A DNA stretch of 64,000 nucleotides from Alcanivorax limicola (GTDB taxonomy: Bacteria > Pseudomonadota > Gammaproteobacteria > Pseudomonadales > Alcanivoracaceae). Under the pieces are notes generated by a model, which saw only the letters and a list, made by a program, of their open reading frames with translations, was not told the origin of the DNA and ran no database searches. The DNA is taken from the NCBI RefSeq assembly GCF_019931215.1, contig NZ_JAIOUB010000001.1:310001-374000 (forward strand), in the 5' to 3' direction. How positions within the stretch are numbered: position 1 is the stretch's first letter; each line of letters opens with the position of its first letter. Of the stretch, positions 35,552 through 50,911 are shown in pieces. A program made the translations under genes and the position numbers.

Positions 35552-35652
35552 ACGGAGCCCCGGCAGCTGCTGGCGGGCCGTGGCCTGGTCTTTGCATGAC
35601 TCTTGCCCACTGTTTCACACTATATTGACGTAGTTCGGGTAAAAGAGAGCAG

Positions 35653-36987
35653 ATGATGACCGCTGGACCGCTCGGTAAATCCCGGCAAGACAGGCCTTGT
35701 GCGACGGATTTCGTGATTGCTTCAAGGCAGTGCGAGATCGACGATCTGTCGCACCTGATGCGTATGGGGCAGCTCGTTGCCGTCATCAGCAACCTGATTC
35801 ATGCCCTGCAACGGGAGCGGGGCGCCTCCAACGTCCACCTCGGTTCCGGCGGCGAGCGCTTTGCCGCGCAACTGGATGATCTCCGCGCCGCCTCGGATGA
35901 ACTGGCCCAGACATTCTACGGCGCACTGAATGAGGTCGCCTCGCGCACCATTGGTGTGCAAAGCGGTGCCCGGCTGTTCAGCCGTATCGCCCATGCAGTG
36001 CATGTCCTGGAGGGGCTGGCCCCGTTGCGGGCGCGCATCAGGGCACTGGACCTGGCGCCGGATGAAGCGGTGCGGCACTACAGCGCCATGGTGGGCAGCC
36101 TGTTGGCCGTGGTGTTCGAGGCGGCCGATGCGGCCATGGACCCGACCATTTCCCGGCTACTGGTGGCCATGTTCAATTTCATGCAAGGCAAGGAACTGGC
36201 GGGCCAGGAACGCGCGCTGGGTGCGGCAGGCTTCGCACAGGGTGAGTTCGATGCTGCCCATGCGGAGCGGCTGAGTGATCTGATCGAGGGGCAGGAGCGC
36301 TGTTTCGATATCTTCGCCGAGTTTGCCGATGCCGACAGCCAGGCGTTGTGGTGTGCGGCGCTCGGGGCGACCGATCAGGCGGAGGTGGAGCGGCTGCGGC
36401 GTCTGGCGTGCACCGGCAATCTGTCTGCACTGATCAGAAGCGAGAGCGCATCGGCGCATATCTCGGACCATTGGTTCTTGCTGATGACAGCGCGTATTGA
36501 TGCCATGAAAGAGGTGGAGGACCACCTTGAGGATCAGTTGCAGGCCTTGTGTGTGGAGCGGCTGGAACAGGCACGTTTGCGCCTGGCGGAGCATGAATCA
36601 CGGATTGGTGCCTTGCAGCAAACGGATGTGGCCGAACCGGACGCGCTGGACAAGGACGCTGTCGAAGAGAACGGTTCCTTTGTCGTGTTCTGCGGGCCAG
36701 AACGTTACAGCAGTGAGAGTCTCAGCCCGCGTCTTGGCCGGGCGATTATCGAGATGGTGCATGATCAGTCGCAACGTCTGCAGTCTATGCAGGATGAGCT
36801 TGATGCGGCGCGGGAAGCTCTGGAAGAACGCAAGGTTGTTGAGCGGGCCAAGGCATTGCTGATGAAACACCGCAAGTTGCAGGAAGATGATGCGCATCGC
36901 CTGCTGCGCAAAATGGCCATGAATCAGGGCAAGCGGCTGGTGGATGTTGCCAGAGCTGTGGTGTCCATGGCGGACGTACTGGGTTGA
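35653..36987 (+). CDS. nasR: NIT-ANTAR nitrate/nitrite-responsive antiterminator, NasR-like
   Basis: Protein of 444 residues. The NIT sensor domain (about 45-300) starts MRMGQLVAVISNLIHALQRERGASNVHLGSGG and contains LVAMFNFMQGKELAGQERALGA, the RxxxxNxxxG...GKExAGQER signature of nitrate/nitrite-sensing domains. A linker leads to a C-terminal ANTAR domain (about 385-440): ALEERKVVERAKALLMKHRKLQEDDAHRLLRKMAMNQGKRLVDVARAVV. This is the architecture of Klebsiella NasR, which on nitrate binding prevents termination in the nasF leader RNA. The hairpin-plus-terminator leaders found in front of three nearby transcription units are its likely targets. It is convergent with the nrtABD operon. Confidence 0.93.
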   Translation: MMTAGPLGKSRQDRPCATDFVIASRQCEIDDLSHLMRMGQLVAVISNLIHALQRERGASNVHLGSGGERFAAQLDDLRAASDELAQTFYGALNEVASRTIGVQSGARLFSRIAHAVHVLEGLAPLRARIRALDLAPDEAVRHYSAMVGSLLAVVFEAADAAMDPTISRLLVAMFNFMQGKELAGQERALGAAGFAQGEFDAAHAERLSDLIEGQERCFDIFAEFADADSQALWCAALGATDQAEVERLRRLACTGNLSALIRSESASAHISDHWFLLMTARIDAMKEVEDHLEDQLQALCVERLEQARLRLAEHESRIGALQQTDVAEPDALDKDAVEENGSFVVFCGPERYSSESLSPRLGRAIIEMVHDQSQRLQSMQDELDAAREALEERKVVERAKALLMKHRKLQEDDAHRLLRKMAMNQGKRLVDVARAVVSMADVLG

Positions 36988-36993
36988 TCCAGC

Positions 36994-37030
36994 CCATGCT
37001 GCACTGCGCGGTCCGCACAGTGCAGCATGG
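36994..37030. terminator. Hairpin between convergent nasR and nrtD
   Basis: CCATGCTGCACTG (36994-37006) pairs perfectly with CAGTGCAGCATGG (37018-37030), with GCG/CGC pairing inside the loop. No T run, so it is probably a shared 3'-end structure. Confidence 0.55.
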
Positions 37031-37039
37031 CCCGTCTCA

Positions 37040-37894
37040 TCAACTCGCCCTGGCTTTTTCTGATGCTGTGCCTTCATCCTTCTTTGCCCGGTGCTCACTG
37101 AGGTTTTCCAGTTTGCGCTGCTTTTCGTACAGAAAGCGCAGCACTTCCTGACGGTAATGGTTGTAGCGCGGGTCATCCGCGAGTGCGATGCGGTCCCTGG
37201 GGCGGGGCAGGTCGATGCTCAGCACTTCCCCGATGGTCGCGGAAGGGCCATTGGTCATCATCACGATGCGGTCCGAGAGCAGGACTGCTTCGTCGACGTC
37301 ATGGGTAATCATCAACACGGTATTGTGCAGTTCGGCCTGGATGCGCATCACCTCGTCCTGCAGGTGCGCACGGGTCAGCGCGTCCAGTGCGCCAAAGGGC
37401 TCGTCCAGCAGCAGAACTTTGGGCTGCATGGCCAGCGCCCGGGCGATGCCCACGCGCTGTTTCATCCCGCCGGAGATTTCCGCCGGTCGTTTGTCCAGCG
37501 CATGGGTCATGTTCACCATGGCGAGGTTATGCAGTATCCAGTCATGACGCTCACTGGCCTTCATGGTTTTGCGCAGAGTCTTGTTCACCGCCAGGGCGAC
37601 ATTCTCATATACGGTCAACCAGGGCAGCAGTGAATGGTTCTGGAACACCAGGGCGCGATCCGGCCCCGGCTTGCTGACTTCACTGCCATCCAGGATGACA
37701 CCGCCGGATGTGGGCGAAATCAGCCCGGCGACAATATTCAGTACCGTGGACTTGCCGCAACCGGAGTGGCCGATGATGGAAATGTATTCGCCTTTGTCGA
37801 CACGCAGGTTTACCTTGTCCAGAACATGGGACGCAACCTTGCCGCTGTTGAACGTCATGTCGATATTTTCGATTGTCAGATAATGTGCACTCAT
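37040..37894 (-). CDS. nrtD: Nitrate-type ABC transporter ATPase (system 1)
   Basis: Protein of 284 residues. Walker A GHSGCGKST (about 41-49), Q-loop FQNHSLLPWLTV, signature SGGMKQRVGIARALA (about 140), Walker B VLLLDEPFGALD, and H-loop ITHDVDEAVLLSDRIVMMTNGP are all present. This places it in the NrtD/SsuB/TauB group. It lacks the extra substrate-binding-like C-terminal domain of cyanobacterial NrtC. The last gene of the leftward nrtA-nrtB-nrtD operon, it energises uptake of nitrate (possibly nitrite or cyanate). Confidence 0.92.
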   Translation of the reverse strand: MSAHYLTIENIDMTFNSGKVASHVLDKVNLRVDKGEYISIIGHSGCGKSTVLNIVAGLISPTSGGVILDGSEVSKPGPDRALVFQNHSLLPWLTVYENVALAVNKTLRKTMKASERHDWILHNLAMVNMTHALDKRPAEISGGMKQRVGIARALAMQPKVLLLDEPFGALDALTRAHLQDEVMRIQAELHNTVLMITHDVDEAVLLSDRIVMMTNGPSATIGEVLSIDLPRPRDRIALADDPRYNHYRQEVLRFLYEKQRKLENLSEHRAKKDEGTASEKARAS

Positions 37895-37918
37895 GATGAT
37901 GCTCCTTCGCTGCGCGGA

Positions 37919-38791
37919 TTAACTGCCAGCCTCGTTGCCACGTGTGACCCGATTGCCGATAAATACCACCAGCCGATCAAGCATAAAGCCGACGATGCCG
38001 ACATAGACCAGTGCCAGGATGATGTCGCTGATCAGTGAGGCGTTCCAGGCATCCCAGATAAAGAAGCCGATGCCCACGCCGCCAATCAGCATTTCAGCAG
38101 CGACAATGGCCAGCCAGGAGAGGCCGACACCGATACGCAGGCCGGAAAAGATGTAGGGCGCTGCTGCAGGCAGCATGATGCGGTGGAAATATTCGGCGCC
38201 GTTCAGTCGCAGCACCCGGGCGACATTGCGATAGTCCTCGGGAATATTGCGGATGCCGACGGAGGTATTGATGATGATCGGCCAGATGGCCGTGATGAAG
38301 ATGACGAAAATGGCGGATGGATTGCTGTCCTGAAAGCCGGCCAGGGAGATCGGCAACCAGGCCAGCGGCGGCACCGTGCGCAGCACCTGAAACAGCGGGT
38401 CCAGACCGCGCATGGCCCAGGTGGATTGGCCCACCAGCACGCCCAGGCTGACCCCGGCAATCACGGCCAGCACATAGCCATAGGCAACACGCTCCAGGCT
38501 GGCAAGGATCTGCCAGGCCATGCCGACATCATTGCCGCCATAATCATAAAACGGGTTGACGATCAGCTCCCACGTGTCGCTGACGACCTGAGTGGGGGGC
38601 GGCAGCACAGCGCCGTCACCGGAGCAAAGCAGTTCCCATATGCCGAGCAATACTGCCGTAATCAGTACCGGGGGCAAAACGCGATCCAGCGCAAAGCGCA
38701 AGGTCCGAGTCGCTGCCTCTGCCCGCCCTGCGGCGTGCATCAGCGAGTGCCCGGGGAAGCGCAGGCCGGAAGTAAGGGTTGATGTGCTCAT
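37919..38791 (-). CDS. nrtB: Nitrate-type ABC transporter permease (system 1)
   Basis: Protein of 290 residues with about six membrane segments. VLPPVLITAVLLGIWELLC lies near residue 35, then PPLAWLPISLAGFQDSNPSAIFVIFITAIWPIIINTSVG and the EAA-type coupling loop NVARVLRLNGAEYFHRIMLPAAAPYIFSGLRIGVGLSW. It is very close to NrtB of nitrate importers. The nrtA gene ends 24 bp upstream and nrtD begins 24 bp downstream. Confidence 0.92.
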   Translation of the reverse strand: MSTSTLTSGLRFPGHSLMHAAGRAEAATRTLRFALDRVLPPVLITAVLLGIWELLCSGDGAVLPPPTQVVSDTWELIVNPFYDYGGNDVGMAWQILASLERVAYGYVLAVIAGVSLGVLVGQSTWAMRGLDPLFQVLRTVPPLAWLPISLAGFQDSNPSAIFVIFITAIWPIIINTSVGIRNIPEDYRNVARVLRLNGAEYFHRIMLPAAAPYIFSGLRIGVGLSWLAIVAAEMLIGGVGIGFFIWDAWNASLISDIILALVYVGIVGFMLDRLVVFIGNRVTRGNEAGS

Positions 38792-38815
38792 GGTAGTTAC
38801 TCCTGCTTGCCGCTA

Positions 38816-40126
38816 TTACCGAAGCCGCTTGATCGCCAGGCTGTCGAGATAGGCCTGCGGGTTTTCGGGATCGAAGACTTTGCCATCGAAGAAGGTCTCG
38901 ACGCCGCGCGAGGTGGTATCTGGAATGTCACGCTTGTCGATGCCCAGCTCCGCCGCGGCAGCGCGCCAGATATCTTCGCGGTTGACACTTTCCACCAGGG
39001 CTTTGGTGTCGAGTTCCTTCGGCAAATAACCCCAGCGGATATTCTCGGTCAGGAACCACTGATCATGGCTCTTGAACGGGTAGGACGCCTGATCATGCCA
39101 GTAGCGCATGCGGTGCGGGCTGTTTTCCACGACCCGGCCGGTGCCGTAGTCAAAATGGCCCTGCATGCGATTGATGATGTCTTCATAGGGTGCGTTGATC
39201 CAGCGACGCCGTGAGCAGATACGGGCCACTTCTTCGATATTTTCCGGTTGCTCGCAGAATATCTGTGCTTCCATGATGGCCTTCACCAGCGCACGGGTAG
39301 CGTTCGGGTTCTGTTCCACATAATCGGCGCGCATACCGAATGCTTTTTCCGGGTGGTTGTGCCAGAGCTCACCGGTGGTGTTGGCGGTGTAGCCGATATT
39401 CTGGCGGATCAGCTGTTCGTTCCAGGGTTCGCAAACACAGAAGGTGTCCATGCTGCCAACACGCATATTGGCGACCATCTGCGCCGGTGGCACAACGATG
39501 GTGGAGATGTCGGCATTCGGATCAATGCCGGCGGCAGCCATCCAGTAGCGAATCCAGAGATCATGGGTGCCGCCGGGGAAGGTCATGGCTGCACGGACTT
39601 CGTTGCCGCCGGCACGTTTGGCTGCGAGCGCCTTGGCGAACTCGCCTGCATCAACACCGACTTTCAGGTCCGCATACTCGCGGCCTACTGAAATGCACTG
39701 CCCGGCAAGATTCAGACGGGCGAGGATGTACATGGGGACCGGCTGGTTGTTTGCCGTCATGGCGCCGGTGGCAATCAGGTAGGGCATGGGCGTCAGGATA
39801 TGAGCACCATCAATGCCGTTACGGGCGGAACCCAGTACCAGATTGTCGCGGGTGGTTCCCCAGGAGGATTGCTTGAGCACCTCGACACCGGTCATGCCGT
39901 GTTTGGCAAAGAGGCCTTTTTCATCGGCGACAAACAAGGGTGCTGCATCTGTCAGTGCGATAAAGCCCAGCTTGGCGTTGCGTGTTTCCGGTTGGCCGGT
40001 GCTGGCCCGGGCGGTACCGCTCAGTAGCGGTGCGGCCAGGGTCGCGCCCCCGATCGCGGCGGTGGACTGTTTGATAAAATCCCGACGTTGCTGGCCACTG
40101 TTGCTCAGCGCTGGTGCCTTTTTCAT
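38816..40126 (-). CDS. nrtA: Nitrate-type ABC transporter substrate-binding protein (system 1, Tat-exported)
   Basis: Protein of 436 residues from the ATG at 40126, preceded by AAAGAGGGAAAGGTC. A twin-arginine signal, QQRRDFIKQSTAAIGGATLAA, lies at about residues 11-40. The mature protein is a CmpA/NrtA-type binding protein: KLGFIALTDAAPLFVADEKGLFAKHG, DGAHILTPMPYLI, VVPPAQMVANMRVGSMDTFCVCEPWN and RRRWINAPYEDIINRMQGHFDYG. It is the first gene of the operon and sits behind a leader with sigma-54 promoter, hexaloop hairpin and terminator, so expression should need both nitrogen limitation and the NIT-ANTAR protein. The in-frame extension to 40291 runs through that terminator and is rejected. 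Confidence 0.93.
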   Translation of the reverse strand: MKKAPALSNSGQQRRDFIKQSTAAIGGATLAAPLLSGTARASTGQPETRNAKLGFIALTDAAPLFVADEKGLFAKHGMTGVEVLKQSSWGTTRDNLVLGSARNGIDGAHILTPMPYLIATGAMTANNQPVPMYILARLNLAGQCISVGREYADLKVGVDAGEFAKALAAKRAGGNEVRAAMTFPGGTHDLWIRYWMAAAGIDPNADISTIVVPPAQMVANMRVGSMDTFCVCEPWNEQLIRQNIGYTANTTGELWHNHPEKAFGMRADYVEQNPNATRALVKAIMEAQIFCEQPENIEEVARICSRRRWINAPYEDIINRMQGHFDYGTGRVVENSPHRMRYWHDQASYPFKSHDQWFLTENIRWGYLPKELDTKALVESVNREDIWRAAAAELGIDKRDIPDTTSRGVETFFDGKVFDPENPQAYLDSLAIKRLR

Positions 40127-40160
40127 GACCTTTCCCTCTTTCCGTTCCCGAAAAAAAGCA

Positions 40161-40209
40161 AAAAAAAACGCCCACGCATACCAGGCTGAAGCCGAAGTAT
40201 GTGTGGGCG
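40161..40209 (-). terminator. Leader terminator (attenuator) before nrtA
   Basis: On the minus strand, CGCCCACACATAC (from 40209) pairs with GTATGCGTGGGCG (ending 40169) with one mismatch, followed by eight T, GC and seven T. It ends 25-35 bp before the nrtA ATG, so read-through is required for expression. Confidence 0.88.
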
Positions 40210-40233
40210 CCATTGCCCGACAAAATGACCCAT

Positions 40234-40261
40234 GCAACAACATCGACATTGATTCCGTTGC
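40234..40261 (-). promoter_or_regulatory. ANTAR-target-like hexaloop hairpin in the nrtA leader
   Basis: On the minus strand, GCAACGGAATC pairs with GATGTTGTTGC (two G-T pairs, one mismatch) around the six-base loop AATGTC (40245-40250). Loop position 1 is A and position 4 is G, as described for ANTAR RNA targets. It lies between the sigma-54 promoter and the leader terminator. Confidence 0.75.
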
Positions 40262-40274
40262 ACACCTGGAGAAA

Positions 40275-40290
40275 AGCATGAAGCGTGCCA
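40275..40290 (-). promoter_or_regulatory. Sigma-54 promoter of the nrtABD operon
   Basis: Minus-strand TGGCACGCTTCATGCT matches the -24/-12 consensus TGGCACG-N4-TTGCW with GG-N10-GC exact. Expected transcription start is near 40263, immediately before the hexaloop hairpin. Confidence 0.82.
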
Positions 40291-40413
40291 TGTCGGGTTT
40301 CGGGGTTGGCTGGATACGCGGCGGGGCAACATTATTCTATAATAATCATGTAGTTATGGATTGCTCGGCGCCCCCGCCCCGGAGTGCGGCTGAGCTCAGG
40401 CGAAGCCATGCAT

Positions 40414-40450
40414 TGCGTTAAAGCAGTGCTCTTCGCACCGCTTTAACGCA
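40414..40450. promoter_or_regulatory. Large dyad midway between the divergent nrt promoters
   Basis: TGCGTTAAAGCAGTGC (40414-40429) and GCACCGCTTTAACGCA (40435-40450) are inverted repeats with one mismatch and a five-base centre. It lies about 125-135 bp upstream of each of the two divergent sigma-54 promoters, an enhancer-like position. The half-site order does not fit the NtrC consensus, so the binding protein is unknown. Confidence 0.5.
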
Positions 40451-40471
40451 GCGCAAGACGATGCCCGGCGC

Positions 40472-40486
40472 GCGCCAGATCGGTGC
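40472..40486. promoter_or_regulatory. NtrC-like enhancer site shared by the two nrt operons
   Basis: GCGCCAGATCGGTGC matches GCACC-N5-GGTGC with one change. It is 100 bp upstream of the rightward sigma-54 promoter (40586) and about 180 bp from the leftward one (40290), both suitable for NtrC activation. Confidence 0.6.
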
Positions 40487-40585
40487 GCGATATCGTGCAG
40501 ACTGCCCGGTGATAGCGCAGGAGATGTCGATCTTTGCGGAGAGCTTTCCGTGTTAACACTTTGATTTTTATCGTCGATATGAGGG

Positions 40586-40601
40586 TGGCATAGCGATTGC
40601 A
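40586..40601 (+). promoter_or_regulatory. Sigma-54 promoter of the second nitrate ABC operon
   Basis: TGGCATAGCGATTGCA fits the -24/-12 consensus with GG-N10-GC exact. Expected start is near 40613, about 17 bases before the hexaloop hairpin. Confidence 0.82.
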
Positions 40602-40629
40602 TTGTACTTCACCGTCAGAGTGACCGTTG

Positions 40630-40647
40630 GCCGACAACGTTGTTGGC
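40630..40647 (+). promoter_or_regulatory. ANTAR-target-like hexaloop hairpin in the second nrt leader
   Basis: GCCGAC (40630-40635) pairs with GTTGGC (40642-40647), one G-T pair, around loop AACGTT (40636-40641). A at loop position 1 and G at position 4 match the ANTAR consensus. Confidence 0.75.
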
Positions 40648-40685
40648 ATTGCAGTCACTTCTCGTATCACTATGTCGGGCAATGG

Positions 40686-40726
40686 CGCTCACCGCACAGG
40701 GAACTGTGCAGTGAGCGTTTTTTTTT
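40686..40726 (+). terminator. Leader terminator (attenuator) before the second nrt operon
   Basis: CGCTCAC (40686-40692) pairs with GTGAGCG (40711-40717), and GCACAG with CTGTGC inside around a GGAA tetraloop, followed by nine T. It ends 25 bp before the ATG at 40752. The 16-base string TGTCGGGCAATGGCGC at 40673-40688 leads into it and is identical, in inverted orientation, to the nrtA leader (40207-40222). Confidence 0.9.
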
Positions 40727-40751
40727 GCCCGCAGGGAAAGGGAGCAGAGCT

Positions 40752-42107
40752 ATGACCGCAAGATTCATCATCGCGCTATGCAGTGTGTTACTCGTCTCAG
40801 CTCAGGCTGCGGCACAGAACTGGCCGGAAAAGGATGAGCTGCGTTTCGGCTTTATCAAATTGACTGATATGGCGCCATTGGCCATAGCGTATGAACGTGG
40901 CTATTTTGAGGATGAAGGTCTCTTCGTCACGCTGGAGGCGCAAGCAAACTGGCGTGTGCTGCTGGACGGTGTGATCTCCGGGGAGCTGGATGGCGCACAT
41001 ATGCTGGCTGGACAACCGCTGGGCAGCACGCTTGGTTTTGGTACCCAGGCGCATGTCGTGACTGCCTTTACGATGGACCTGAACGGTAATGCCATCACCG
41101 TATCCAACCAGGTCTGGGAAGCGATGAAGCCGCATCTCGATATGGCGGACGGTAAACCGCAGCACCCGATTCATGCCGGTGCACTGAAGCCTGTCATCGA
41201 GGCCCATAATGACAAGGGTGAGGCTTTCCGCATGGGGATGGTCTTCCCGGTCTCTACGCACAATTATGAGTTGCGCTACTGGCTTGCTGCTGCCGGCATT
41301 CACCCGGGCTACTATGCACCGCTGCGGGGTGACACCTCGGGCAATATCGACGCAGAAGTGTTGCTGTCCGTCACACCGCCGCCGCAGATGCCCGCCACGC
41401 TGGAAGCCGGCACGATTCATGGCTATAGCGTCGGTGAGCCGTGGAATCAACAGGCGGTTTTCCGGGGTATCGGTGTGCCGGTCATTACGGATTACGATAT
41501 CCGCAACAATATCGCGGAGAAGGTGTTCGGCGTCAGCAATGAATGGGCCGAACGTTATCCCAATACCCACATGCGTGTGGTCAAGGCGCTGATCCGGGCC
41601 GGTATGTGGCTGGACGCCGAGAATAATCGCAACCGGGAAGAAGCGGCGCGCATCATTTCACGGCCCAACTATGTCGGCGCGGACTACGAGGTGATCGCCA
41701 ACAGCATGACCGGGGTTTTCGAGTTCGAAAAAGGTGACGTGCGCGAGGCACCGGATTTCAACGTTTTCTTCCGCCACAATGCGACCTATCCCTACTACTC
41801 CGATGCGATCTGGTACCTCACCCAGATGCGTCGCTGGGGCCAGATACCCGAGCACAAGCCGGACGACTGGTATCTCGACATGGCGCGCAAGGTATTCAAG
41901 CCGGCAGTCTATCAGGCCGCCGCGCGAGCCCTGATCGAAGAAGGTAAGGCGTCCGCCGCAGACTTTCCTGACATGAACACCGAAAGCGGTTTCCGGTCGC
42001 CGGAACATACGACGTTCATTGATGGCATGGTGTTCGATGCACGTGAACCGAACGCTTACCTGCAACGCTTCGATATCGGCCTCAAGCAAGACAGCGGGAG
42101 GCTGTGA
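40752..42107 (+). CDS. Nitrate-type ABC transporter substrate-binding protein (system 2)
   Basis: Protein of 451 residues with a Sec signal peptide ([18 protein letters not shown], cleaved near 22), unlike the Tat signal of the system 1 protein. It is a CmpA/NrtA-family binding protein: [94 protein letters not shown]. The ATG at 40752 follows AGGGAAAGGGAGCAG. It is divergent from system 1 and controlled by its own sigma-54 promoter and attenuator. The ligand could be nitrate, nitrite or cyanate; sequence alone does not separate them. Its stop overlaps the permease start (ATGA). Confidence 0.9.
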
Positions 42108-43096
42108 TGACGACGCTGACTTTGCCGCAATGGCTGCAACCCTGGGTGCGCCTGGCGCGGGGCGAGGCACCGCAAGCGCAGATAAGACTGCTGCTGTTGC
42201 AGTGGGCGGCGCCCATCGTCGGCATTCTGGTATTGCTGGCAGTCTGGCAACTGGGTGCGTCGCGTATCAATACGTCATTGGGTCAATTTCCCGGCCCGGT
42301 ACAGGTGTATGAACAGGCCGGCAATCTGCTCGCGGAGCACCGTGCGGAGCGCGAGCGGTCACGGGCGTTCATGTTGCGCCAGGAGGAGCGTATTGCTGCG
42401 CGCCTGGCGCAGCAGCCGGACTGGGAACCGGTACGTCGCAGCTATACCGGGGCGCCGACCTTCTTTGACCAGATTCGCACCAGTCTGGTAACGGTGCTGG
42501 CCGGTTTTCTGCTGGCATCGCTGATAGCGATACCCCTGGGTATCGTCATGGGGCTCAGTCGCGTGCTGGAGAATGCATTGAATCCGGTGGTGCAACTGCT
42601 GAAGCCCGTATCGCCGCTGGCGTGGTTGCCGCTGGTCACGTTGGTGGTGGCGGCACTGTATACGACGGAGGACCCCGCCTTTTCACGATCCTTTGTGGTG
42701 TCCATGGTCACGGTGATGTTGTGCAGTCTGTGGCCGACGCTGATCAATACGGCAGTGGGCGTGAAAACGGTCAGCGATGACCTGAACAACGTCAGCCGTG
42801 TCCTGCGCCTCAAGTGGCTGACGCACGTGCGCCGGATCGTATTGCCCTCCGCCATTCCGATGATGTTTGCCGGCCTCAGGGTATCGCTGGGCATTGCCTG
42901 GATGGTGCTGATCGCGGCGGAAATGCTGGCCCAGAATCCGGGGTTGGGCAAGTTCGTCTGGGACGAATTTCAGAACGGCAGCTCGCAATCGTTGAGCCGC
43001 ATCATGGTGGCCGTGCTGGTCATCGGCGCCATCGGCTTCGCGCTGGACCGCATCATGGTGCTGATTCAGCGGCGGGTAGACTGGAAACAGGATTAG
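42104..43096 (+). CDS. Nitrate-type ABC transporter permease (system 2)
   Basis: Protein of 330 residues, about 40 longer than the system 1 permease. After the first membrane segment ([18 protein letters not shown]) there is an extra charged, probably periplasmic stretch (about residues 65-115: [37 protein letters not shown]). The core is NrtB-like: [77 protein letters not shown]. Start overlaps the binding-protein stop by 4 bp, and the ATPase follows after 9 bp. Confidence 0.9.
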
Positions 43097-43105
43097 GAGA
43101 ATGCG

Positions 43106-43981
43106 ATGAAACCCTTACTTGAGCTCTCATCTGTGGGCATGCATTTTGAAACGCCGGGGGGCATTTTTGACGCACTGCGTGACGTCAATCTGCGTATCAA
43201 TGAAGGGGAGTTCGTCTCCCTGATCGGTCATTCCGGCTGCGGCAAGTCTACGGTGCTGAATATTGTGGCGGGCCTGTTACAGGCGACGCGCGGTGGCGCC
43301 ATCCTCGCAGGCCGTGAAGTGACAGCGCCCGGCCCGGAACGCGCCGTCGTGTTCCAGAATCATTCGTTGTTGCCCTGGCTGAGCGTCTGGGACAACGTTG
43401 CGCTGGCGGTGCAGGAGGTGTTTCGGCGGCGCATGAATCGCGCCGAGATGCGTGACTGGATAGCGCATAACCTCGAGCTGGTGCAAATGCTGCACGCGCG
43501 GGACAAGCGTCCGGGGGAAATTTCCGGGGGCATGAAGCAACGTGTTGGCATCGCCCGGGCACTCGCCATGCAGCCGCGCGTGTTGCTGATGGATGAACCG
43601 TTTGGAGCGCTGGATGCCCTGACGCGGGCCCGCCTGCAGGATACGCTGATGCAGATCCAGACAGCACAGGGCAATACGGTGATCATGATTACGCATGATG
43701 TCGACGAGGCGGTGCTGTTGTCGGACCGCATTGTGATGATGACCAATGGCCCCTCGGCAACGATTGGCGAGATTTTGCCGATCGATCTGCCGCGCCCGCG
43801 TGATCGTCTGATGCTGGCTGATAATGCGCATTACAACCGTCTGCGACACCGGGTGCTGCGATTTTTGCACGAACGGGATGATGACGGTGATGTGGCCGGG
43901 GTCGCGGCATCGGTGACGGCTTTGCAGACGCCAGCGTCATCTCCGGCGAGTCCTCCGAAGAAGAGCGCGGCCAGCGCCTGA
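43106..43981 (+). CDS. Nitrate-type ABC transporter ATPase (system 2)
   Basis: Protein of 291 residues, closely paralogous to the system 1 ATPase. Walker A GHSGCGKST (about 42-50), FQNHSLLPWLSV, signature SGGMKQRVGIARALAMQ, Walker B VLLMDEPFGALD and ITHDVDEAVLLSDRIVMMTNGPSATIGEILPIDLPRPRDR are all present. The tail (about 260-291) is Ala/Ser/Pro-rich and divergent. It is the last gene of the operon; the stop codon sits in the loop of a 12-bp perfect hairpin. Confidence 0.92.
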   Translation: MKPLLELSSVGMHFETPGGIFDALRDVNLRINEGEFVSLIGHSGCGKSTVLNIVAGLLQATRGGAILAGREVTAPGPERAVVFQNHSLLPWLSVWDNVALAVQEVFRRRMNRAEMRDWIAHNLELVQMLHARDKRPGEISGGMKQRVGIARALAMQPRVLLMDEPFGALDALTRARLQDTLMQIQTAQGNTVIMITHDVDEAVLLSDRIVMMTNGPSATIGEILPIDLPRPRDRLMLADNAHYNRLRHRVLRFLHERDDDGDVAGVAASVTALQTPASSPASPPKKSAASA

Positions 43982-43994
43982 TGGCGCTGGCCGC
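43967..43994. terminator. 12-bp hairpin spanning the stop codon of the system 2 ATPase
   Basis: GCGGCCAGCGCC (43967-43978) pairs perfectly with GGCGCTGGCCGC (43983-43994). The TGA stop lies in the four-base loop. It separates convergent genes and has no T run. Confidence 0.6.
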
Positions 43995-44000
43995 ATGACG

Positions 44001-45686
44001 TCACAGGTGCAAGGACAGACTCATGATCAGCAGCACCAGCAGAATGACGCTGGTGGCCTGCCAGAGGCGCAGCGTATTGCGCTCCTGGCGGGTGATGATC
44101 GCAGTGTGGGCGGCAGGGCGGCGCAGTGCGGCGCGGAACTCCGCCGCATCGGCATAGGGATTGGCATCCGGGTGCAGTGCGCGTTGCAGCACATGGTTCA
44201 GCCACATCGGCACGAAGGCATTGTGCTGTTGCAGGCGCAGTGCCGGCTTGTCCGGATCAGGCAGCGTGCCAGTGAGCATCTCGTGGATGATCACCGCCAC
44301 GGCATACAGGTCTCCCTGCTCGTCCGGCGTGGCGCCGCTACGAATATGACGGGCTGTATAGTGACGCGTACCGAGGGGCAGCGGCGGGGGTTGCTGGTCC
44401 AGCCCGCGACAGTAACAACTGCCGAAGTCGATCAGTTTTACCAGCCCGCTGCGGTCGACCATGATGTTGTCGGGTTTCAGATCGCCATGGATCACATCGG
44501 CCCGATGCAGGGCGCGCACGCCGTTGAGTAACTGATCCGCCAAGTAGAGCTTTTCTTCCACGGCCGCATCAGGATGTTCGCGCAGCCACTGGCGCAGTGT
44601 CACACCATCGATATATTCGAGCCGCTGATACAGGCAACTCTGCTGGCCGACGGGGGGCAGGGGTTTCAACAAGTGAGCGCTGCGCAAGCGCGCGCCGATC
44701 CAGCCTTCCAGCGCAAAGCGGGTCAACGCATCAGCATCGTCCTCCAGATTGACGGAGGGTGCCTTGAGTGCGCTGAGCTGGTCGTCAGCATCGCGCACCA
44801 GATACAAGTGGCTGCGCGCGCTGGCATACAGCTCATGCACCACGGTCAGACCGTCGACGCGCATCCCCGGCGCCAGCGGTGGCGGCAGCGGCAGTTCGCG
44901 CAGCGAGGCCAGTGCGTCATCGGCACTGGCATCCGGCAAGGTCAATACATGAAGGACCTGGCAACTGACGTTGTCGCGGCTGCCATTGTTGAGCGCAAAC
45001 TGTACCAGGTTCTCGGCGGCCACCTGCGGGGTCTCCGAACCGAGCAGGGTGTCTTCAATGATCGGCCAGGGCAGAACGTCATGCACACCATCACTGGTGA
45101 GCAGGAAGATGTCACCCTGCTGCAGTTCGCATTGGCGGTAGTCCACTTCCAGACGCGTATCGCCCCCCATGGCTCGCGTCAGCAGGCGTCGTCCGCCGGC
45201 CTGACGGCTGTGATCCTCGGTCAGGCATTCCAGTCGTCTGTCGCGCAGTCGCCAGATGCGCGAATCGCCGACCTGGAACAGATGCGCCAGGCGCGAGCGC
45301 AAAATCAGGACCGACAGGGTGCACAGATGATCTTCGCCCGCGAGGGTGCGTCGGCACAGCCAGCGGTTGAGTGCTTCCAGTACGCGCTGCGCCGAGCGCG
45401 GCACGCTCCATAGCGAGGGCGTGGCGTAGTAGTCGTTGATGAAACCGAGCACGCAGGCCTCGGCGGCCTCACGCCCCGCCTCGGCGGAGCTGAGGCCATC
45501 GGCGAGGGCTGCCACCAGTCCCTTGGTGCGCAACGGCTGGCCGGAAGGCAGTCGCATGGCTACGGCGTCCTGGTTGTGTGGTTTGACGCCGGTCTCACTG
45601 CACTGGCCCACGCATACGTTCAGACCGCTTTCTATGGCGTCTTGTGGCGAGGTCCCTGCCTCCCGCAGATCTGGCATGTGTGCCAT
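44001..45686 (-). CDS. PP2C phosphatase / Ser-Thr protein kinase fusion with C-terminal membrane anchor
   Basis: Protein of 561 residues from the ATG at 45686, which overlaps the narK stop (TGATG). The N-terminal PP2C-type phosphatase (about 10-245) has GQCSETGVKPHNQDAVA, ALADGLSS, FQVGDSRIW, LLTSDGVHDVL and SRDNVSCQ, with all metal-binding Asp positions apparent. The C-terminal kinase (about 270-520) has a Lys in LSALKAPS, HGDLKPDNIMVD (catalytic loop, about 398) and IDFGSC (DFG). The last 20 residues (TSVILLVLLIMSLSLHL) form a tail anchor, placing both activities on the cytoplasmic membrane face. Co-transcription with narK suggests control of nitrate uptake or assimilation by phosphorylation, but targets are unknown. 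Confidence 0.9.
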   Translation of the reverse strand: MAHMPDLREAGTSPQDAIESGLNVCVGQCSETGVKPHNQDAVAMRLPSGQPLRTKGLVAALADGLSSAEAGREAAEACVLGFINDYYATPSLWSVPRSAQRVLEALNRWLCRRTLAGEDHLCTLSVLILRSRLAHLFQVGDSRIWRLRDRRLECLTEDHSRQAGGRRLLTRAMGGDTRLEVDYRQCELQQGDIFLLTSDGVHDVLPWPIIEDTLLGSETPQVAAENLVQFALNNGSRDNVSCQVLHVLTLPDASADDALASLRELPLPPPLAPGMRVDGLTVVHELYASARSHLYLVRDADDQLSALKAPSVNLEDDADALTRFALEGWIGARLRSAHLLKPLPPVGQQSCLYQRLEYIDGVTLRQWLREHPDAAVEEKLYLADQLLNGVRALHRADVIHGDLKPDNIMVDRSGLVKLIDFGSCYCRGLDQQPPPLPLGTRHYTARHIRSGATPDEQGDLYAVAVIIHEMLTGTLPDPDKPALRLQQHNAFVPMWLNHVLQRALHPDANPYADAAEFRAALRRPAAHTAIITRQERNTLRLWQATSVILLVLLIMSLSLHL

Positions 45687-47155
45687 CAGCTTACCTCGAT
45701 CAACTGAACCTGGCCGTTCTCGTCCACTTCCGCAATATGTCCGCGCGGTTCTTCCAGCCACTGCACGGCGGCGAGTGTTACTGCGGCAAATGCTGCGATG
45801 ACCAGGAAGAAGGATGAGGGATCGACAAAGGTCAGCACTGTGAGAAAGCTCACAGCGCCGGCGTTGCCATAAGCACCGACCATACCGGATATCTGGCCGG
45901 TCAGGCGGCGTTTGATAAGCGGCACTGTGGCAAACACGGCGCCTTCGCCAGCCTGAACAAAGAACGAGCAGCACATGGTCGCCATGACGGCAAACACCAG
46001 CGGCCAGCTACTGCCGATCAGACTCATCAGCCCGTAACCGAGCATCAGCCCACACAGCAGAATGCTCAGGGAGCGTTTCCGGCCGAAGCGATCCGAGAGC
46101 CAGCCGCCACCGGGCCGTGCGACCAGATTCATGAACGCAAAGCCGGAGGCCAGGATCCCGGCTGTCACAGCAGCCAGGTTGAAGGTATCGATAAAGAAGA
46201 GCGGCAGCATCGACACCACGGCGAGCTCTGAACCGAAGGTGACCAGGTAAGCCAGGTTGAGAATAGCGACTTGCTTGAACGCGTAACGGTCATGCTCCGG
46301 CACGCCCTCGCGCAGGCGCTGGTAGTTTACCCGCCAGACCTGATGCAGCTGGACGATCGCCAGGCTCAGAATCACAGCAATCAAAGCCAGTTGCGGTGTC
46401 ACGCCATACAGTCCGAGTTGCCCCGGACCGAGACGCCAGACGATGACCAGCAGCGCGGCGTAAAGCGGCACACACATTGCCATATAGAAGTACAGGTCGC
46501 GCTTGCTGCTGACTTCCAGTGCAGACGCTTTCTTGGGTTTGAAGTAGGACGCACCGGCGGGCGTATTGCGCGCGCGCCAGAGAAAGATCAGCCCGTAGGT
46601 GACAGACAGCAGGCCGGTGCAGGCCACGGCCCAGCGCCAACCGTTGTCGCCGCCGAACAGCATGGCCAGCGTGGGCAGGGTAAGGGCTGCCGCCGCGGAA
46701 CCGAAGTTGCCCCAGCCGCCGTAGACACCCTCTGCCAGCCCGACCTCTCGCGCCGGGAACCATTCGCTGATGAGACGAATGCCGACGACGAAGCCGGCGC
46801 CGACAAAGCCGAGCAACAGACGTGTGACAGCCAGTTGCTCATAGGTATTGGCCAGAGCAAAGGCCCAGCAGGGAATCGCTGCCACAATCAGCAGCATGCC
46901 GAACACCAGGCGTGGCCCGTAGCGATCGACCAGTGAACCGATAACCACCCGTGCGGGAATGGTTAATGCAACGTTGAGAATGAGCAGTGCCTTGACCTGA
47001 TCCGAGGTCAGGTCAAAAACCTCACGGATATCCCCCATCAACGGGGCGTGGGAAAACCACACCACAAAGCTGACAAAGAAAGCCATCCAGCTGAGATGCA
47101 ACAGGCGGACGCGCGGGACAGACAGGTTCAGCAAATTCAGTTTCTGCGTGCTCAT
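45686..47155 (-). CDS. narK: Nitrate/nitrite transporter, NarK/NasA type (MFS)
   Basis: Protein of 489 residues with about 12 transmembrane segments. It belongs to the nitrate/nitrite porter family: [20 protein letters not shown], the [10 protein letters not shown] loop after the second helix, [47 protein letters not shown] (nitrate signature region) and, in the second half, [40 protein letters not shown]. It imports nitrate for assimilation. The ATG follows TGGAGCACCC. A sigma-54 promoter and hexaloop hairpin are seen at 47313-47366, 160-210 bp upstream. It is first in an operon with the phosphatase/kinase fusion. Confidence 0.93.
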
Positions 47156-47312
47156 GGGTGCTCCATTTCAGGGCCATATCAGGAATGAGCGCGCGGTGCT
47201 GCTCAGGAGCCCGCTGCGCCCATGTGTGAACGGGGATAACCGGACACAAGGCCGAGCGTCGTTGCTCCTGGTGCGCTGACTGCGATGATGTCGCCGGTGT
47301 CAGGGCAGGGTG

Positions 47313-47334
47313 TCCGGACCGCCATTGATCCGGA
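47313..47334 (-). promoter_or_regulatory. ANTAR-target-like hexaloop hairpin upstream of narK
   Basis: On the minus strand, TCCGGATC pairs with GGTCCGGA (one G-T pair) around loop AATGGC (47321-47326), again A at position 1 and G at position 4. It sits just after the predicted sigma-54 start. No T-tailed terminator is visible between it and narK. Confidence 0.6.
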
Positions 47335-47350
47335 ACATGCAGGCAAATAG

Positions 47351-47366
47351 TGCACGATGCATGCCA
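47351..47366 (-). promoter_or_regulatory. Candidate sigma-54 promoter of narK operon
   Basis: Minus-strand TGGCATGCATCGTGCA has GG-N10-GC and one mismatch in the -12 box. Expected start is near 47340, giving a leader of about 185 bases before narK. Confidence 0.65.
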
Positions 47367-47509
47367 CTTTTCCCGGAGTGCATCTCAATGGTGCGAAACA
47401 GGCAGGCGTGGTGGGCCTTAACCGGGCGTTTGCAGGTTCTGCACGATGTCGCAGTAGTAACCCGCTGCATGGCGATAGCGGACTGCCAGGGCACGGATGA
47501 AGGTTCCTG

Positions 47510-47526
47510 TGCATTGTTTCGGTGCA
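47510..47526. promoter_or_regulatory. NtrC-like enhancer site between narK and nirB
   Basis: TGCATTGTTTCGGTGCA matches the NtrC consensus TGCAC-N7-GTGCA closely. It lies about 145 bp upstream of the leftward and 155 bp upstream of the rightward sigma-54 promoter. A weaker second match, TGCATCTCAATGGTGCG, is at 47379-47395. Confidence 0.7.
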
Positions 47527-47680
47527 CGGGTGCGCGATCAGGTGGCAGGGGAGGGCGTGGCCGGAGGTTGCCTGGCAATCCCCTGCGCCCGAGCGAAGTC
47601 GGGCAGGTGCCGTGTCAGCGGCTGTCCTGCAAGGCTTTGCGGGCGTCGGGGAGGTTGATGGCTGTGTGCTTTACAACGGC

Positions 47681-47696
47681 TGGCATGAGTTTTGCT
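47681..47696 (+). promoter_or_regulatory. Sigma-54 promoter of the nirBD-nas operon
   Basis: TGGCATGAGTTTTGCT fits TGGCACG-N4-TTGCW with GG-N10-GC exact. Expected start is near 47708. It is the rightward promoter of the 788-bp region between narK and nirB. Confidence 0.82.
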
Positions 47697-47726
47697 CCTT
47701 TCATCACGTCGCGACCCGTGCCGCAT

Positions 47727-47744
47727 GCCATCAACGACGATGGC
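47727..47744 (+). promoter_or_regulatory. ANTAR-target-like hexaloop hairpin in the nirB leader
   Basis: GCCATC (47727-47732) pairs perfectly with GATGGC (47739-47744) around loop AACGAC (47733-47738); A at position 1 and G at position 4. Confidence 0.78.
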
Positions 47745-47800
47745 GCCGTGCACTGCCGTGATACAGCGACAAGACATCGCGCTAGGGACAATCGAGCAAA

Positions 47801-47848
47801 GGCGCTCACCGTCCGGGCCACAGCCCGGGATGTGAGCGCCTTTTTTTT
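47801..47848 (+). terminator. Leader terminator (attenuator) before nirB
   Basis: GGCGCTCAC (47801-47809) pairs perfectly with GTGAGCGCC (47832-47840), with further GC-rich pairing inside, followed by eight T. It lies 95 bp before the nirB ATG and shares the GGCGCTCAC stem with the attenuator at 40686. Confidence 0.9.
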
Positions 47849-47943: not shown

Positions 47944-50517
47944 ATGGGCAAACCGGCGTTGGTCATCATAGGTAACGGGATGGTGGGGCAGAGCCTGCTC
48001 GAAACGTTGAGCGGTCTCACTCATGACTACGCCATCACGGTGTTCAGTGCCGAGCCGCGTCCCGCCTATGATCGGGTGCAATTGAGCAGTTGGTTCAGCG
48101 GTGCGACTACTGAAGATCTGGCATTGACCACTGAGGCCTTCTTTACCGAGCACGGTATCCGGCTGCTGCTGGGTGAAGCGGTGGCACGCATCGATACCGC
48201 CGGGCGTTGCGTGGAAGGGGTGTCAGGCGCGTCAGTGGCCTATGACAAGCTGGTTATTGCCACGGGCTCCTATCCGTTTGTGCCGCCCATTCCCGGTAAC
48301 GATCAGGCGCATTGCCTGGTGTATCGCACCATTGAAGATCTGGAGGCGATTCGCGACAGCGCAACCTCATCAAAATGCGGCGTCGTGATTGGTGGTGGTC
48401 TGCTGGGTCTGGAAGCTGCCAAGGCGCTGAAGGATCTCGGGCTGGATACCCATGTGGTGGAGTTCGCGCCACGTCTGATGGCCGTGCAGCTGGATGACGG
48501 CGGTGCGCGGGTGCTGCGCCACAAGATCGAGAGCCTGGGCGTCAAGGTGCATACCGGCAAGGCAACGCAGGCGATTGTCGCCGGCGAGACCTCACGTTAT
48601 CGCCTGGAATTTGCCGACGGCGAAACCCTTGAAACCGATATGGTGCTCTTCTCTGCCGGCATTCGACCGGACGATAAACTGGCCCGTGACGCCGGTCTTG
48701 AGGTGGGCGAGCGAGGCGGCATTGTCGTCAATGATCGTTGCCAGACCTCCGATCCGGATATCTATGCCATCGGTGAAGTCGCGCTGTGGTCCGGGCGTAT
48801 CTACGGTCTGGTGGCGCCGGGCTATGAAATGGCCCGTGTCTGCGCCGCACAGCTTACCGGTGATGGCAGCCGCACCTTTACCGGTGCGGATATGAGCACC
48901 AAACTCAAACTGATGGGCGTGGAAGTGGGCTCCATCGGTGATGCCCAGGGCAATGCGCCCGGCGCGACCACGTGCGTATTCGAAGACGGGCCCGCGGGCA
49001 TCTACAAGAAACTGATCCTGGACGCCGAAGGCAAGAAGCTGATCGGCGCCGTGCTGGTCGGGGATACCGCAGACTATGGCATGTTGTTGCAGTACTGCCT
49101 CAACGAGATGGCACTGCCGCAGCAACCCGCCGCGTTGATCCTGCCGGCATCCTCCGACAAACCGTCGCTGGGCGTGGATGCGCTGCCCGATTCAGCACAG
49201 ATTTGCTCCTGCAACAATGTCACCAAAGGCGATCTGTGCAGCGCCATCGCCGGCGGCTGCACCACCGTAGGTGGTTTGAAAACTGATACCAAAGCGGCCT
49301 CCAGTTGTGGCGGTTGCGCCGCCCTGGTGAAGCAGGTGCTGGATGCAGAGCTCGTGCGGCAGGGCATTGAAGTCAACAATGACCTTTGCGAGCACTTTGC
49401 CTACAGCCGCCAGGAGCTCTATCACTTGGTACGGGTGCATGAAATAAAGACATTCGATGCGCTGCTGGAAAAATTCGGCAAAGGCCACGGCTGTGATATC
49501 TGCAAGCCGACGGTGGCGTCCATCCTGGCATCTTGCTGGAACGAATACCTGCTCAAGCCCCAGCACGCCGGCCTGCAGGATACCAACGACTATTTCCTGG
49601 CCAATCTGCAGAAGGACGGGACCTACTCGGTGGTGCCCCGCGTACCCGGTGGCGAGATCACACCGGAAAAACTCATCGTTATCGGTGAGGTAGCGCAGCG
49701 TTACGACCTCTATACCAAGATCACCGGCGGTCAGCGTATTGACCTGTTTGGCGCCCGGGTGGAACAGCTGCCAAAAATCTGGAGTGAACTGGTGGAAGCC
49801 GGTTTCGAATCCGGCCACGCCTACGGTAAATCCCTGCGTACGGTGAAGTCCTGTGTCGGCAACAGCTGGTGCCGCTACGGCGTGCAGGATTCCGTCGCCA
49901 TGGCGATCTTTGTGGAAGAGCGCTATCGCGGTCTGCGTTCCCCGCACAAGCTGAAGATGGCCGTGTCCGGTTGCACACGGGAATGTGCAGAAGCACAAAG
50001 CAAGGACATCGGCATTATCGCAACAGAAAAGGGCTGGAACCTGTATGTCTGCGGCAATGGTGGCATGCGCCCCCGGCACGCCGAACTGTTTGCCAGTGAT
50101 ATTGATGACGACACCCTGATCCGCTACATCGACCGCTTGCTGATGTTCTATATCCGCACCGCTGATCGTCTGCAGCGCACCTCGGTGTGGCGCGACAACA
50201 TGGAGGGCGGGCTGGAGTATCTGCAGGACGTGGTCATCAATGATTCCCTGAATATTGCGGAAGAGCTTGAACACCAGATGCAGGCGGTGGTGGATACCTA
50301 TGTCTGTGAATGGAAACGCACTATCGAAGACGCCCAGGCGTTGCGCCGCTTCGATGCCTTCATCAATGACGACAGCGCGGATGAGCATATCGTCTATGTC
50401 CGTGAGCGCGGGCAGAAGCGCCCGGCGCGACCTGAAGAACGACAACAGCTGATGGCAGAGGCGCAGCCAGTGCGCTTCGATCCTCAGGCCCGCACGGAAA
50501 AAGGAGAACCGGCATGA
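47944..50517 (+). CDS. nirB: Assimilatory nitrite reductase [NAD(P)H], large subunit
   Basis: Protein of 857 residues that reduces nitrite to ammonium in the cytosol. The order is: FAD domain (IIGNGMVGQSLLETL at 6-20), NAD(P)H domain (VVIGGGLLGLEAAKAL near 145), BFD-like [2Fe-2S] cysteines 421, 423, 455 and 458 (CSCN and SCGGC), and a nitrite/sulfite reductase domain with siroheme-[4Fe-4S] ligands Cys637, Cys643, Cys677 and Cys681 (CVGNSWC and GCTREC). AAGGAG lies six bases before the ATG at 47944. It is first in the operon nirB-nirD-flavoprotein-nasA-cobA, behind the leader at 47681-47848, and overlaps nirD by 4 bp. Confidence 0.96.
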   Translation: MGKPALVIIGNGMVGQSLLETLSGLTHDYAITVFSAEPRPAYDRVQLSSWFSGATTEDLALTTEAFFTEHGIRLLLGEAVARIDTAGRCVEGVSGASVAYDKLVIATGSYPFVPPIPGNDQAHCLVYRTIEDLEAIRDSATSSKCGVVIGGGLLGLEAAKALKDLGLDTHVVEFAPRLMAVQLDDGGARVLRHKIESLGVKVHTGKATQAIVAGETSRYRLEFADGETLETDMVLFSAGIRPDDKLARDAGLEVGERGGIVVNDRCQTSDPDIYAIGEVALWSGRIYGLVAPGYEMARVCAAQLTGDGSRTFTGADMSTKLKLMGVEVGSIGDAQGNAPGATTCVFEDGPAGIYKKLILDAEGKKLIGAVLVGDTADYGMLLQYCLNEMALPQQPAALILPASSDKPSLGVDALPDSAQICSCNNVTKGDLCSAIAGGCTTVGGLKTDTKAASSCGGCAALVKQVLDAELVRQGIEVNNDLCEHFAYSRQELYHLVRVHEIKTFDALLEKFGKGHGCDICKPTVASILASCWNEYLLKPQHAGLQDTNDYFLANLQKDGTYSVVPRVPGGEITPEKLIVIGEVAQRYDLYTKITGGQRIDLFGARVEQLPKIWSELVEAGFESGHAYGKSLRTVKSCVGNSWCRYGVQDSVAMAIFVEERYRGLRSPHKLKMAVSGCTRECAEAQSKDIGIIATEKGWNLYVCGNGGMRPRHAELFASDIDDDTLIRYIDRLLMFYIRTADRLQRTSVWRDNMEGGLEYLQDVVINDSLNIAEELEHQMQAVVDTYVCEWKRTIEDAQALRRFDAFINDDSADEHIVYVRERGQKRPARPEERQQLMAEAQPVRFDPQARTEKGEPA

Positions 50518-50867: not shown

Positions 50868-50911
50868 TCCGCATGTTCCTTACCAAGCGAGCAAGTCAAG
50901 CGAGCAAGCGC

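Follow-up and report, generated by a model that had tools for sequence, protein, structure and literature searches.

A predicted NasR-type nitrate regulon in Alcanivorax limicola with three terminator leaders and a terminator-less narK leader

In Klebsiella oxytoca, the nasF leader recognised by NasR carries two hairpins with hexaloops that are closed by C:G and have A at position 1 and G at position 4, the second hairpin being exclusive with the terminator, according to the available text of two reports (PMC7496416, PMC3369931). The ANTAR systems characterised until 2012, including NasR, each acted on a single locus according to the available text of Ramesh 2012 (PMC3369931), in which multi-operon ANTAR regulons were predicted and terminator-less matches were noted as possible translation control. 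In the NasS-NasT system of Bradyrhizobium and others, an ANTAR protein controls several nitrogen units via leader hairpins, and narK leader hairpins are predicted in B. diazoefficiens, as described in the consulted sections of PMC6759348. Compared with these systems, as far as the available text of the sources describes them, the locus studied here resembles NasR/nasF of K. oxytoca in its NIT-ANTAR protein, its two-hairpin target (P1 and P2), the exclusion between P2 and the terminator, and its relation to nitrate assimilation; unlike that single-locus system, it has a narK leader without a terminator in addition to three leaders with one, of which two precede ABC importers. It shares with NasS-NasT an ANTAR protein and leader hairpins at several nitrogen units, whereas NasS is a separate sensor protein and here sensor and ANTAR domain are fused. 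Like the EutV regulon of Enterococcus and the predictions of Ramesh 2012, it has several leaders and one ANTAR protein (PMC3369931), while signal and genes differ from those of the EutV regulon. NasR-type antitermination itself is already known; here it appears to be spread over several operons, with one unusual, terminator-less leader.

The genes concerned lie in a 64-kb window, the whole stretch of DNA analysed:

35581..35597, plus strand: sigma-54-like GG-N10-GC element 5' of the NIT-ANTAR gene (by eye)
35653..36987, plus strand: nasR-like gene, NIT (aa 47-297) and ANTAR (aa 385-437) (Pfam, whole-genome ANTAR search, 4akk match)
37040..40126, minus strand: nrtA-nrtB-nrtD nitrate ABC importer (NCBIfam ntrB and ntrCD over cut-off; NrtA to 2g29, E 7.7e-170)
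40752..43981, plus strand: second nrt-like ABC importer (ATPase over ntrCD cut-off)
44001..47155, minus strand: narK-kinase unit, with narK (45686-47155) and a PP2C + protein kinase gene (44001-45689)
47944..57072, plus strand: nirB unit, with nirB, a nirD-like frame, FAD reductase, molybdopterin oxidoreductase, tetrapyrrole methylase and outer-membrane channel

In the second importer, the permease falls below the ntrB cut-off (173.6 of 209) and the binding protein is nearest to the NrtC/CmpC regulatory domain. In the nirB unit, the nirD-like frame (50514-50867) was assigned by position only, and the molybdopterin oxidoreductase is probably the nitrate reductase. The NIT-ANTAR gene that the first-pass annotation had called at 35653 was recovered by Pfam, with NIT (193 bits) fused to a C-terminal ANTAR domain (69 bits); its best solved relative is K. 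oxytoca NasR (4akk, E 6.1e-62), and it is the single ANTAR match in the whole genome at E<=0.001, genome completeness being given as 100. The sigma-54-like element upstream of it, missed by the scripted pattern, ends in TTGCAT in 6/6 genus genomes (read by eye). Eight residues named, in the available text on K. oxytoca NasR, for the nitrate pocket and RNA binding were mapped by hand on the alignment: five are kept (E175=E186, R176=R187, R340=R393, K347=K400, R366=R419) and three are changed (K345->R398, W362->H415, N373->G426). According to the same text, RNA binding of K. oxytoca NasR depends on N373, and the three changes were counted against the NasR-regulon reading. Overall, the sequence comparisons support a NasR-type protein, and the single ANTAR gene together with the co-occurrence described below makes it appear that this one protein serves all units.

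Three of the units are preceded by leaders composed of the following parts:

40275..40290, minus strand: sigma-54-type promoter, nrtA1 unit (sequence pattern)
40238..40257, minus strand: P1 hairpin, loop AATGTC, nrtA1 leader (sequence, folding)
40205..40218, minus strand: P2 hairpin GGGC[AATGGC]GCCC, nrtA1 leader, with a strand common to the terminator (sequence, alignment)
40160..40211, minus strand: intrinsic terminator and U-tract, nrtA1 leader (folding, covariation)
40586..40601, plus strand: sigma-54-type promoter, second ABC unit (nrtA2) (sequence pattern)
40629..40648, plus strand: P1 hairpin GCCGAC[AACGTT]GTTGGC, second ABC leader (sequence)
40677..40690, plus strand: P2 hairpin GGGC[AATGGC]GCTC, second ABC leader (sequence, alignment)
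40684..40726, plus strand: intrinsic terminator, second ABC leader (folding, covariation)
47681..47696, plus strand: sigma-54-type promoter, nirB unit (sequence pattern)
47726..47745, plus strand: P1 hairpin TGCCATC[AACGAC]GATGGCG, nirB leader (sequence)
47794..47807, plus strand: P2 hairpin GAGC[AAAGGC]GCTC, nirB leader (sequence, alignment)
47800..47848, plus strand: intrinsic terminator, nirB leader (folding, covariation)

The first-pass annotation had placed a sigma-54-type element, a hexaloop hairpin and an intrinsic terminator before each of these units, and all three parts were found again. The GC of each element plus 12 bp gives the starts it had predicted near 40263, 40613 and 47708; its hexaloops AATGTC, AACGTT and AACGAC are each closed by C:G, with just 3 uninterrupted pairs beside the loop in P1 of nrtA1; and the U-tracts end, within the distance it had given, 33, 25 and 95 bp upstream of the nrtA1, nrtA2 and nirB start codons (ATG), a second T run of the nrtA1 leader ending 24 bp before its ATG. 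Its description of the target as a single hexaloop holds for P1 and falls short in each leader, where P2 had been missed: two hairpins with a C:G-closed hexaloop, A1 and G4 occur in four leaders of the window. In the nrtA1, nrtA2 and nirB leaders, P2 and the intrinsic terminator are mutually exclusive by sequence, and the nirB P2 is identical over its 14 bases in 6/6 genus nirB leaders.

Taken whole, the three leaders are more stably folded than their dinucleotide shuffles (z -3.1, -6.2 and -4.8); the P1 part alone is much less clear, with 9, 2 and 22 of 200 shuffles folding equally well. The sigma-54 pattern by itself is weak evidence, matching 11 times within the window, and a scan of the window for hexaloop pairs, which yielded 10 where Markov sequence gave 2.3, is likewise too weak alone. 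Rfam at gathering threshold gave no match within the window, and a generic terminator scan was uninformative (8 sites versus 9.8 in shuffles), listing just part of the nrtA1 terminator and missing those of nrtA2 and nirB.

From these sequences we consider it highly probable that the locus encodes a NasR-type nitrate regulon, with sigma-54 starts at four units, nitrate-triggered antitermination at three and another route at narK. We infer that under nitrogen limitation sigma-54 RNA polymerase would start the nrtABD, second nrt-like importer, nirB-nas and narK-kinase units, and that the 3' part of the three leaders would by default be folded into the terminator. Nitrate or nitrite bound by the NIT domain would free the ANTAR domain, which would then hold the P1 and P2 hexaloop hairpins; since P2 would engage the strand that makes up the 5' arm of the terminator, the terminator could not form and transcription would proceed.

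The first-pass annotation had described the regulon as complete, with three leaders. The protein, the one ANTAR gene and three conserved leaders with a competing terminator stand, but 'complete' and 'three' do not, since the narK-kinase unit carries a sigma-54 element, P1 and P2 without a terminator:

47366-47156, minus strand: narK leader, missed in the first-pass annotation
47351..47366, minus strand: sigma-54-type promoter, narK unit (sequence pattern)
47313..47334, minus strand: P1, TCCGGATC[AATGGC]GGTCCGGA (sequence)
47254..47267, minus strand: P2, GAGC[AACGAC]GCTC (sequence)
47204..47210, minus strand: GCTCCTG, potential partner of CAGGAGC at 47264-47270 (by eye; no U-tract after it)

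The same arrangement, with C[ANNGNN]G loops, precedes narK in 6/6 genus genomes with narK. No T5 run occurs in 5/6 of these leaders, and the sixth has one only within the loop of a predicted hairpin; no terminator-like site in the narK leader was listed by the generic terminator scan, and P2 there has no terminator to exclude. This leader does not fit plain antitermination and was counted against the regulon reading; given that it lacks a U-tract, the NIT-ANTAR protein most likely acts there by another route, which may be translation, Rho or titration. Judged from sequence, the leader looks like a gain within the genus, and like one whose mode of action is not intrinsic termination. We tentatively suggest, as a plausible reading, that within the genus the narK-kinase unit acquired a leader of ~155-185 nt that includes the complete NasR target and lacks a terminator. 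A single nitrate sensor would then act on three operons through antitermination, and on the fourth through a step other than termination, possibly repression or control of translation.

ANTAR-binding small RNAs sequester EutV. The narK leader might similarly be a decoy whose P1 and P2 soak up the NIT-ANTAR protein, with no cis control of narK; the conserved loops and missing U-tract would agree with this. A helix excluding P2, needless for a pure decoy, is however present in the best predicted folds of 4/5 narK leaders (G004 left out), although the best fold of the window's own leader retains P2. CAGGAGC holds the 5' arm of P2, and its helix with GCTCCTG appears in the best fold predicted for the leader of G001 and is absent from that of the window's leader. 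We regard the decoy as unlikely, yet still worth weighing. Somewhat less likely again is a chance or decayed, functionless copy, with narK under sigma-54 alone. No such leader was found at 24 narK loci outside the genus, 21 of which have a sigma-54-type element near the start (the readable loci among 48 matching genomes; these are narK matches and may not all be orthologues, and G033, G043 and G045 have two adjacent copies each), and 3/6 genus narK leaders have a mismatch in the P1 stem. Against decay, the motif is kept in 6/6, only 26/12000 shuffles pass, and P1 shows paired changes between G000 and G001 with loop A1/G4 constant.

The proposed regulon also gains from the comparison of leaders among relatives. 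Across 92 loci, P1, P2 and terminator were found together upstream of 63/78 nrtA starts (0/780 shuffles), 10/41 nirB starts (0/410 shuffles) and 1/29 FAD-reductase starts, and of 0/65 nrtB, 0/79 nrtD, 0/84 NIT-ANTAR, 0/37 nasA and 0/25 kinase starts; L054-L056, which duplicate G001, G004 and G003, were excluded, as was any gene start preceded by <250 bases, and some pairs of loci come from a single genome. Leaders of this type adjoin NIT-ANTAR genes across beta- and gammaproteobacteria, and a GG-N10-GC element occurs in 61/63 motif-bearing nrtA regions, as at the four units of the window. Within 19 genus leaders, whose P1 hairpins were selected visually by their hexaloop and their pairs counted gap-free by script, 90/95 inner pairs are formed, with loop A1 in 18/19 and G4 in 19/19. 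Counted against the regulon reading were the 15/78 nrtA upstream regions without the strict motif, a G for A at loop position 1 (GACGAT in P1 of G001 nrtA2, GACGCA in a G024 leader), and the G036 nirB leader, which has P2 and terminator without a canonical P1.

Covariation was assessed on 41 leaders (3 from the window, 38 others), hand-chosen for similar terminator form out of 74. The P2 and terminator helices covary on common columns, with 99.4% and 91.7% of cells paired, values inflated because the rows had already passed pairing filters. The covariation score and doubly changed cells exceed all 500 shuffles for both helices, while shuffles did as well on two of the five measures for P2 (155 and 382 of 500) and on one of the terminator's five (93 of 500). 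The covariance-model search for ANTAR targets that had been proposed for the window was run on the whole 3.55-Mb genome: at E<=0.01 and under strict filters, with which weak matches are lost, the P2+terminator model, whose 41 rows include the three leaders themselves, matched exactly these leaders (E 2.2e-7, 2.3e-6 and 4.8e-6). The pattern GRGCAANGRYGCYC had 8 matches in the genome (reversed-pattern control 0), 4 of which are the P2s of the four units; the other 4 were rejected, none of them combining P1 with a sigma-54 element in the order expected. One of the rejected matches (L051) lies directly 5' of a nitroreductase-like frame. The pattern GGACAANGNNGTCC gave no signal (4 matches versus 20 for the reversed control). 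Terminator-less targets with other stem sequences are possible elsewhere in the genome.

Among 57 genomes, a leader match is present in 26/33 with a protein match and 1/24 without, in a hand cross-count of two lists where the protein matched is mostly a NasT, through its ANTAR domain; G065, with a leader and no detected ANTAR match, was counted against the regulon reading. That the leaders are real targets on which another ANTAR protein, a NasT, acts alone or with NIT-ANTAR would agree with a NasT-type receiver-ANTAR protein in another genus of the family (L015) and with matches of the same P2+terminator model (R1) in genomes with a NasT-type protein, but the single ANTAR gene of this genome makes it very improbable. 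Equally improbable are constitutive attenuators with incidental hexaloops, which are compatible with the present, sequence-only data but at odds with the joint retention of P1, P2 and terminator beside NIT-ANTAR genes and with leader matches that track an ANTAR relative.

The NasR-type reading would describe a small regulon in which one sensor is linked to the reductases, to two ABC importers and probably to NarK. Three leaders with and one without a terminator in the same genome provide a natural test of ANTAR action where there is no terminator to prevent.

The product of the gene at 35653 carries NIT and ANTAR domains by domain search, as the first-pass annotation had proposed; its best solved relative is K. 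oxytoca NasR (4akk), and it is the only ANTAR match in the genome (3.55 Mb, 10 contigs). The three leaders assigned to this protein, those of nrtABD (nrtA1), of a second nrt-like ABC unit (nrtA2) and of nirB, were all recovered on reading the sequence, each with a sigma-54-type GG-N10-GC element, a hexaloop hairpin and a terminator, and a whole-genome covariance-model search (R1, modelling P2 plus terminator; E ≤ 0.01) returned these three and nothing else. Two parts of that description did not hold: a single hexaloop had been taken as the target, overlooking a second hairpin (P2), and the regulon had been called complete with three units, while a fourth, narK with a PP2C/kinase gene, carries a target as well. 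A NasR-type regulon, predicted to be larger than first stated, is well supported, and one unit, narK, is by its sequence a departure from the known rule. The elements read from the sequence are:

40290, minus strand: sigma-54-type GG-N10-GC element, nrtA1 leader
40586, plus strand: sigma-54-type GG-N10-GC element, second ABC leader
47681, plus strand: sigma-54-type GG-N10-GC element, nirB leader
47366, minus strand: sigma-54-type element, narK unit
upstream of the narK unit, minus strand: P1, TCCGGATC[AATGGC]GGTCCGGA
upstream of the narK unit, minus strand: P2, GAGC[AACGAC]GCTC

ANTAR proteins recognise two hairpins together (PMC3369931), and NasR SELEX gave a closing C:G with loop A at position 1 and G at 4 (PMC7496416). 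In the nrtA1, second ABC and nirB leaders, respectively, the first hairpin (P1) has the hexaloops AATGTC, AACGTT and AACGAC, P2 reads GGGC[AATGGC]GCCC, GGGC[AATGGC]GCTC and GAGC[AAAGGC]GCTC, and the U-tract ends 33, 25 and 95 bp before the ATG. In all three, the terminator has P2 at its 5' base, and the two have a strand in common. Compared with dinucleotide shuffles, folding is better for the leaders taken whole; for P1 alone the advantage is less clear, and weakest in nirB (22/200 shuffles equally good). Between the divergent nrt promoters, an inverted repeat found by eye (40415-40449, GCGTTAAAGC...GCTTTAACGC) could be an activator site, e.g., for NtrC. In the second ABC unit, the binding protein (40752-42107) is closer to the NrtC/CmpC regulatory domain than to NrtA, and its start resembles a signal peptide. 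A sigma-54-like element was also read by eye upstream of the NIT-ANTAR gene, such promoters having been noted before ANTAR genes (PMC12316311), and another (TGGCATGGCGTTTGCT, 28111, minus strand) lies 91 bp upstream of a minus-strand frame (26572-28020).

In an alignment of 41 leaders, the P2 and terminator helices use common columns (14-17) and form in 99.4% and 91.7% of cells; none of 500 shuffles matches either helix in covariation score or in doubly changed cells. These figures are upper bounds because the rows had passed pairing filters. Doubly changed pairs and pair types of P2 did not stand out against shuffling (155 and 382 of 500). For P1, 71/76 pairs at positions 2-5 were formed in 19 genus hairpins selected by eye for the hexaloop (shuffled mean 36.8).

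The leader comparison suggested earlier found the leaders conserved in relatives. Among the relatives kept (best 80 of 523; Alcanivorax, Pseudohongiella, Thioalkalivibrio, Azoarcus, Polaromonas, Variovorax and others), 92 loci were scanned for P1, P2 and a competing terminator, which were present upstream of 63/78 nrtA starts (shuffles 0/780) and 10/41 nirB starts (0/410); 61 of the nrtA regions and all 10 of the nirB regions also have a sigma-54-type element. Many motif-free nirB genes may be internal to an nrtA operon. Control starts gave 0/65 (nrtB), 0/79 (nrtD), 0/37 (nasA) and 0/84 (NIT-ANTAR), kinase starts 0/25 (shuffles 1/250), FAD reductase starts 1/29 and narK starts 0/5. Since nine loci, three of them in the genus, have at least two such leaders, the window is not alone in having a multi-leader NIT-ANTAR system. 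An additional unit with a leader, in G003 and G006, is a formate/nitrite transporter gene (Pfam check in G006 only), and in the draft G024 the NIT-ANTAR gene and an nrtA2-like leader are on separate contigs. Two nrtA2-type leaders have G, not A, at P1 loop position 1 (G001, GACGAT, L032:16671-16690; G024, GACGCA, L141 near 1400-1500). The nirB leader of the distant NIT-ANTAR genome G036 (L042:19761-19862) has the sigma-54-type element, P2 and terminator, and its upstream hairpin loop seems to be a five-base GTACA rather than a hexaloop.

Over 57 genomes, R1 matched in 26/33 with a match to the NIT-ANTAR protein, which in most of the 33 is to a NasT-like ANTAR domain only, versus 1/24 without; it was absent from the other 7/33. 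The one exception among the 24, G065 (L149), has its R1 match before a nirB-like frame and no protein match at E ≤ 1e-10. At the cut-offs applied, the sister genome G002 matched none of NIT-ANTAR, nirB, narK and R1 and, as genes and leaders are absent together, is not an independent test.

The narK leader has no U-tract after P2. If a single mismatch in the P1 stem is tolerated, the dual motif precedes narK in 6/6 genus genomes with the gene (shuffles 26/12000), and with strict pairing in 3/5; the promoter element lies about 180-211 nt upstream of the start. Outside the genus the motif was found in 0/24 loci, which were taken as narK by match rather than gene order; in 21 of them a sigma-54-type element lies 54-60 nt upstream of where the match begins. 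Predicted best folds give up P2 for another helix in 4/5 narK leaders, and forcing P2 costs 0 (window), 0.7, 3.0, 6.4 and 6.5 kcal/mol. A possible competitor, CAGGAGC/GCTCCTG, is common to the window and G001; in G003, G005 and G006 the 3' arm of P2 would instead pair with a GGGTGG stretch close to the start codon region. In actinobacteria, translation has been reported to be under ANTAR control (PMC8164766). For Bradyrhizobium narK, where NasT hairpins were predicted, a nasT mutant raised expression under denitrifying conditions, while another group saw it lowered under aerobic assimilation (PMC6759348); given this conflict, control at narK could run in either direction.

Multi-operon ANTAR regulons as such are published (PMC3369931). 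Titles and abstract openings disclosed no multi-leader NIT-ANTAR regulon or terminator-less narK leader for these bacteria; single leaders may be in Ramesh Table S2. In other genera of the family, NasT-type proteins (receiver plus ANTAR; L015 by Pfam, L012, L016, L017 and L022 by look; also L143) replace NIT-ANTAR with the leader type unchanged; there, the P2 of G019 has exactly the 14 bases of its counterpart before nirB in the window and is followed by a gene resembling nrtA2. The RNA code looks common to NIT-ANTAR and NasT-type genera, though the regulator differs.
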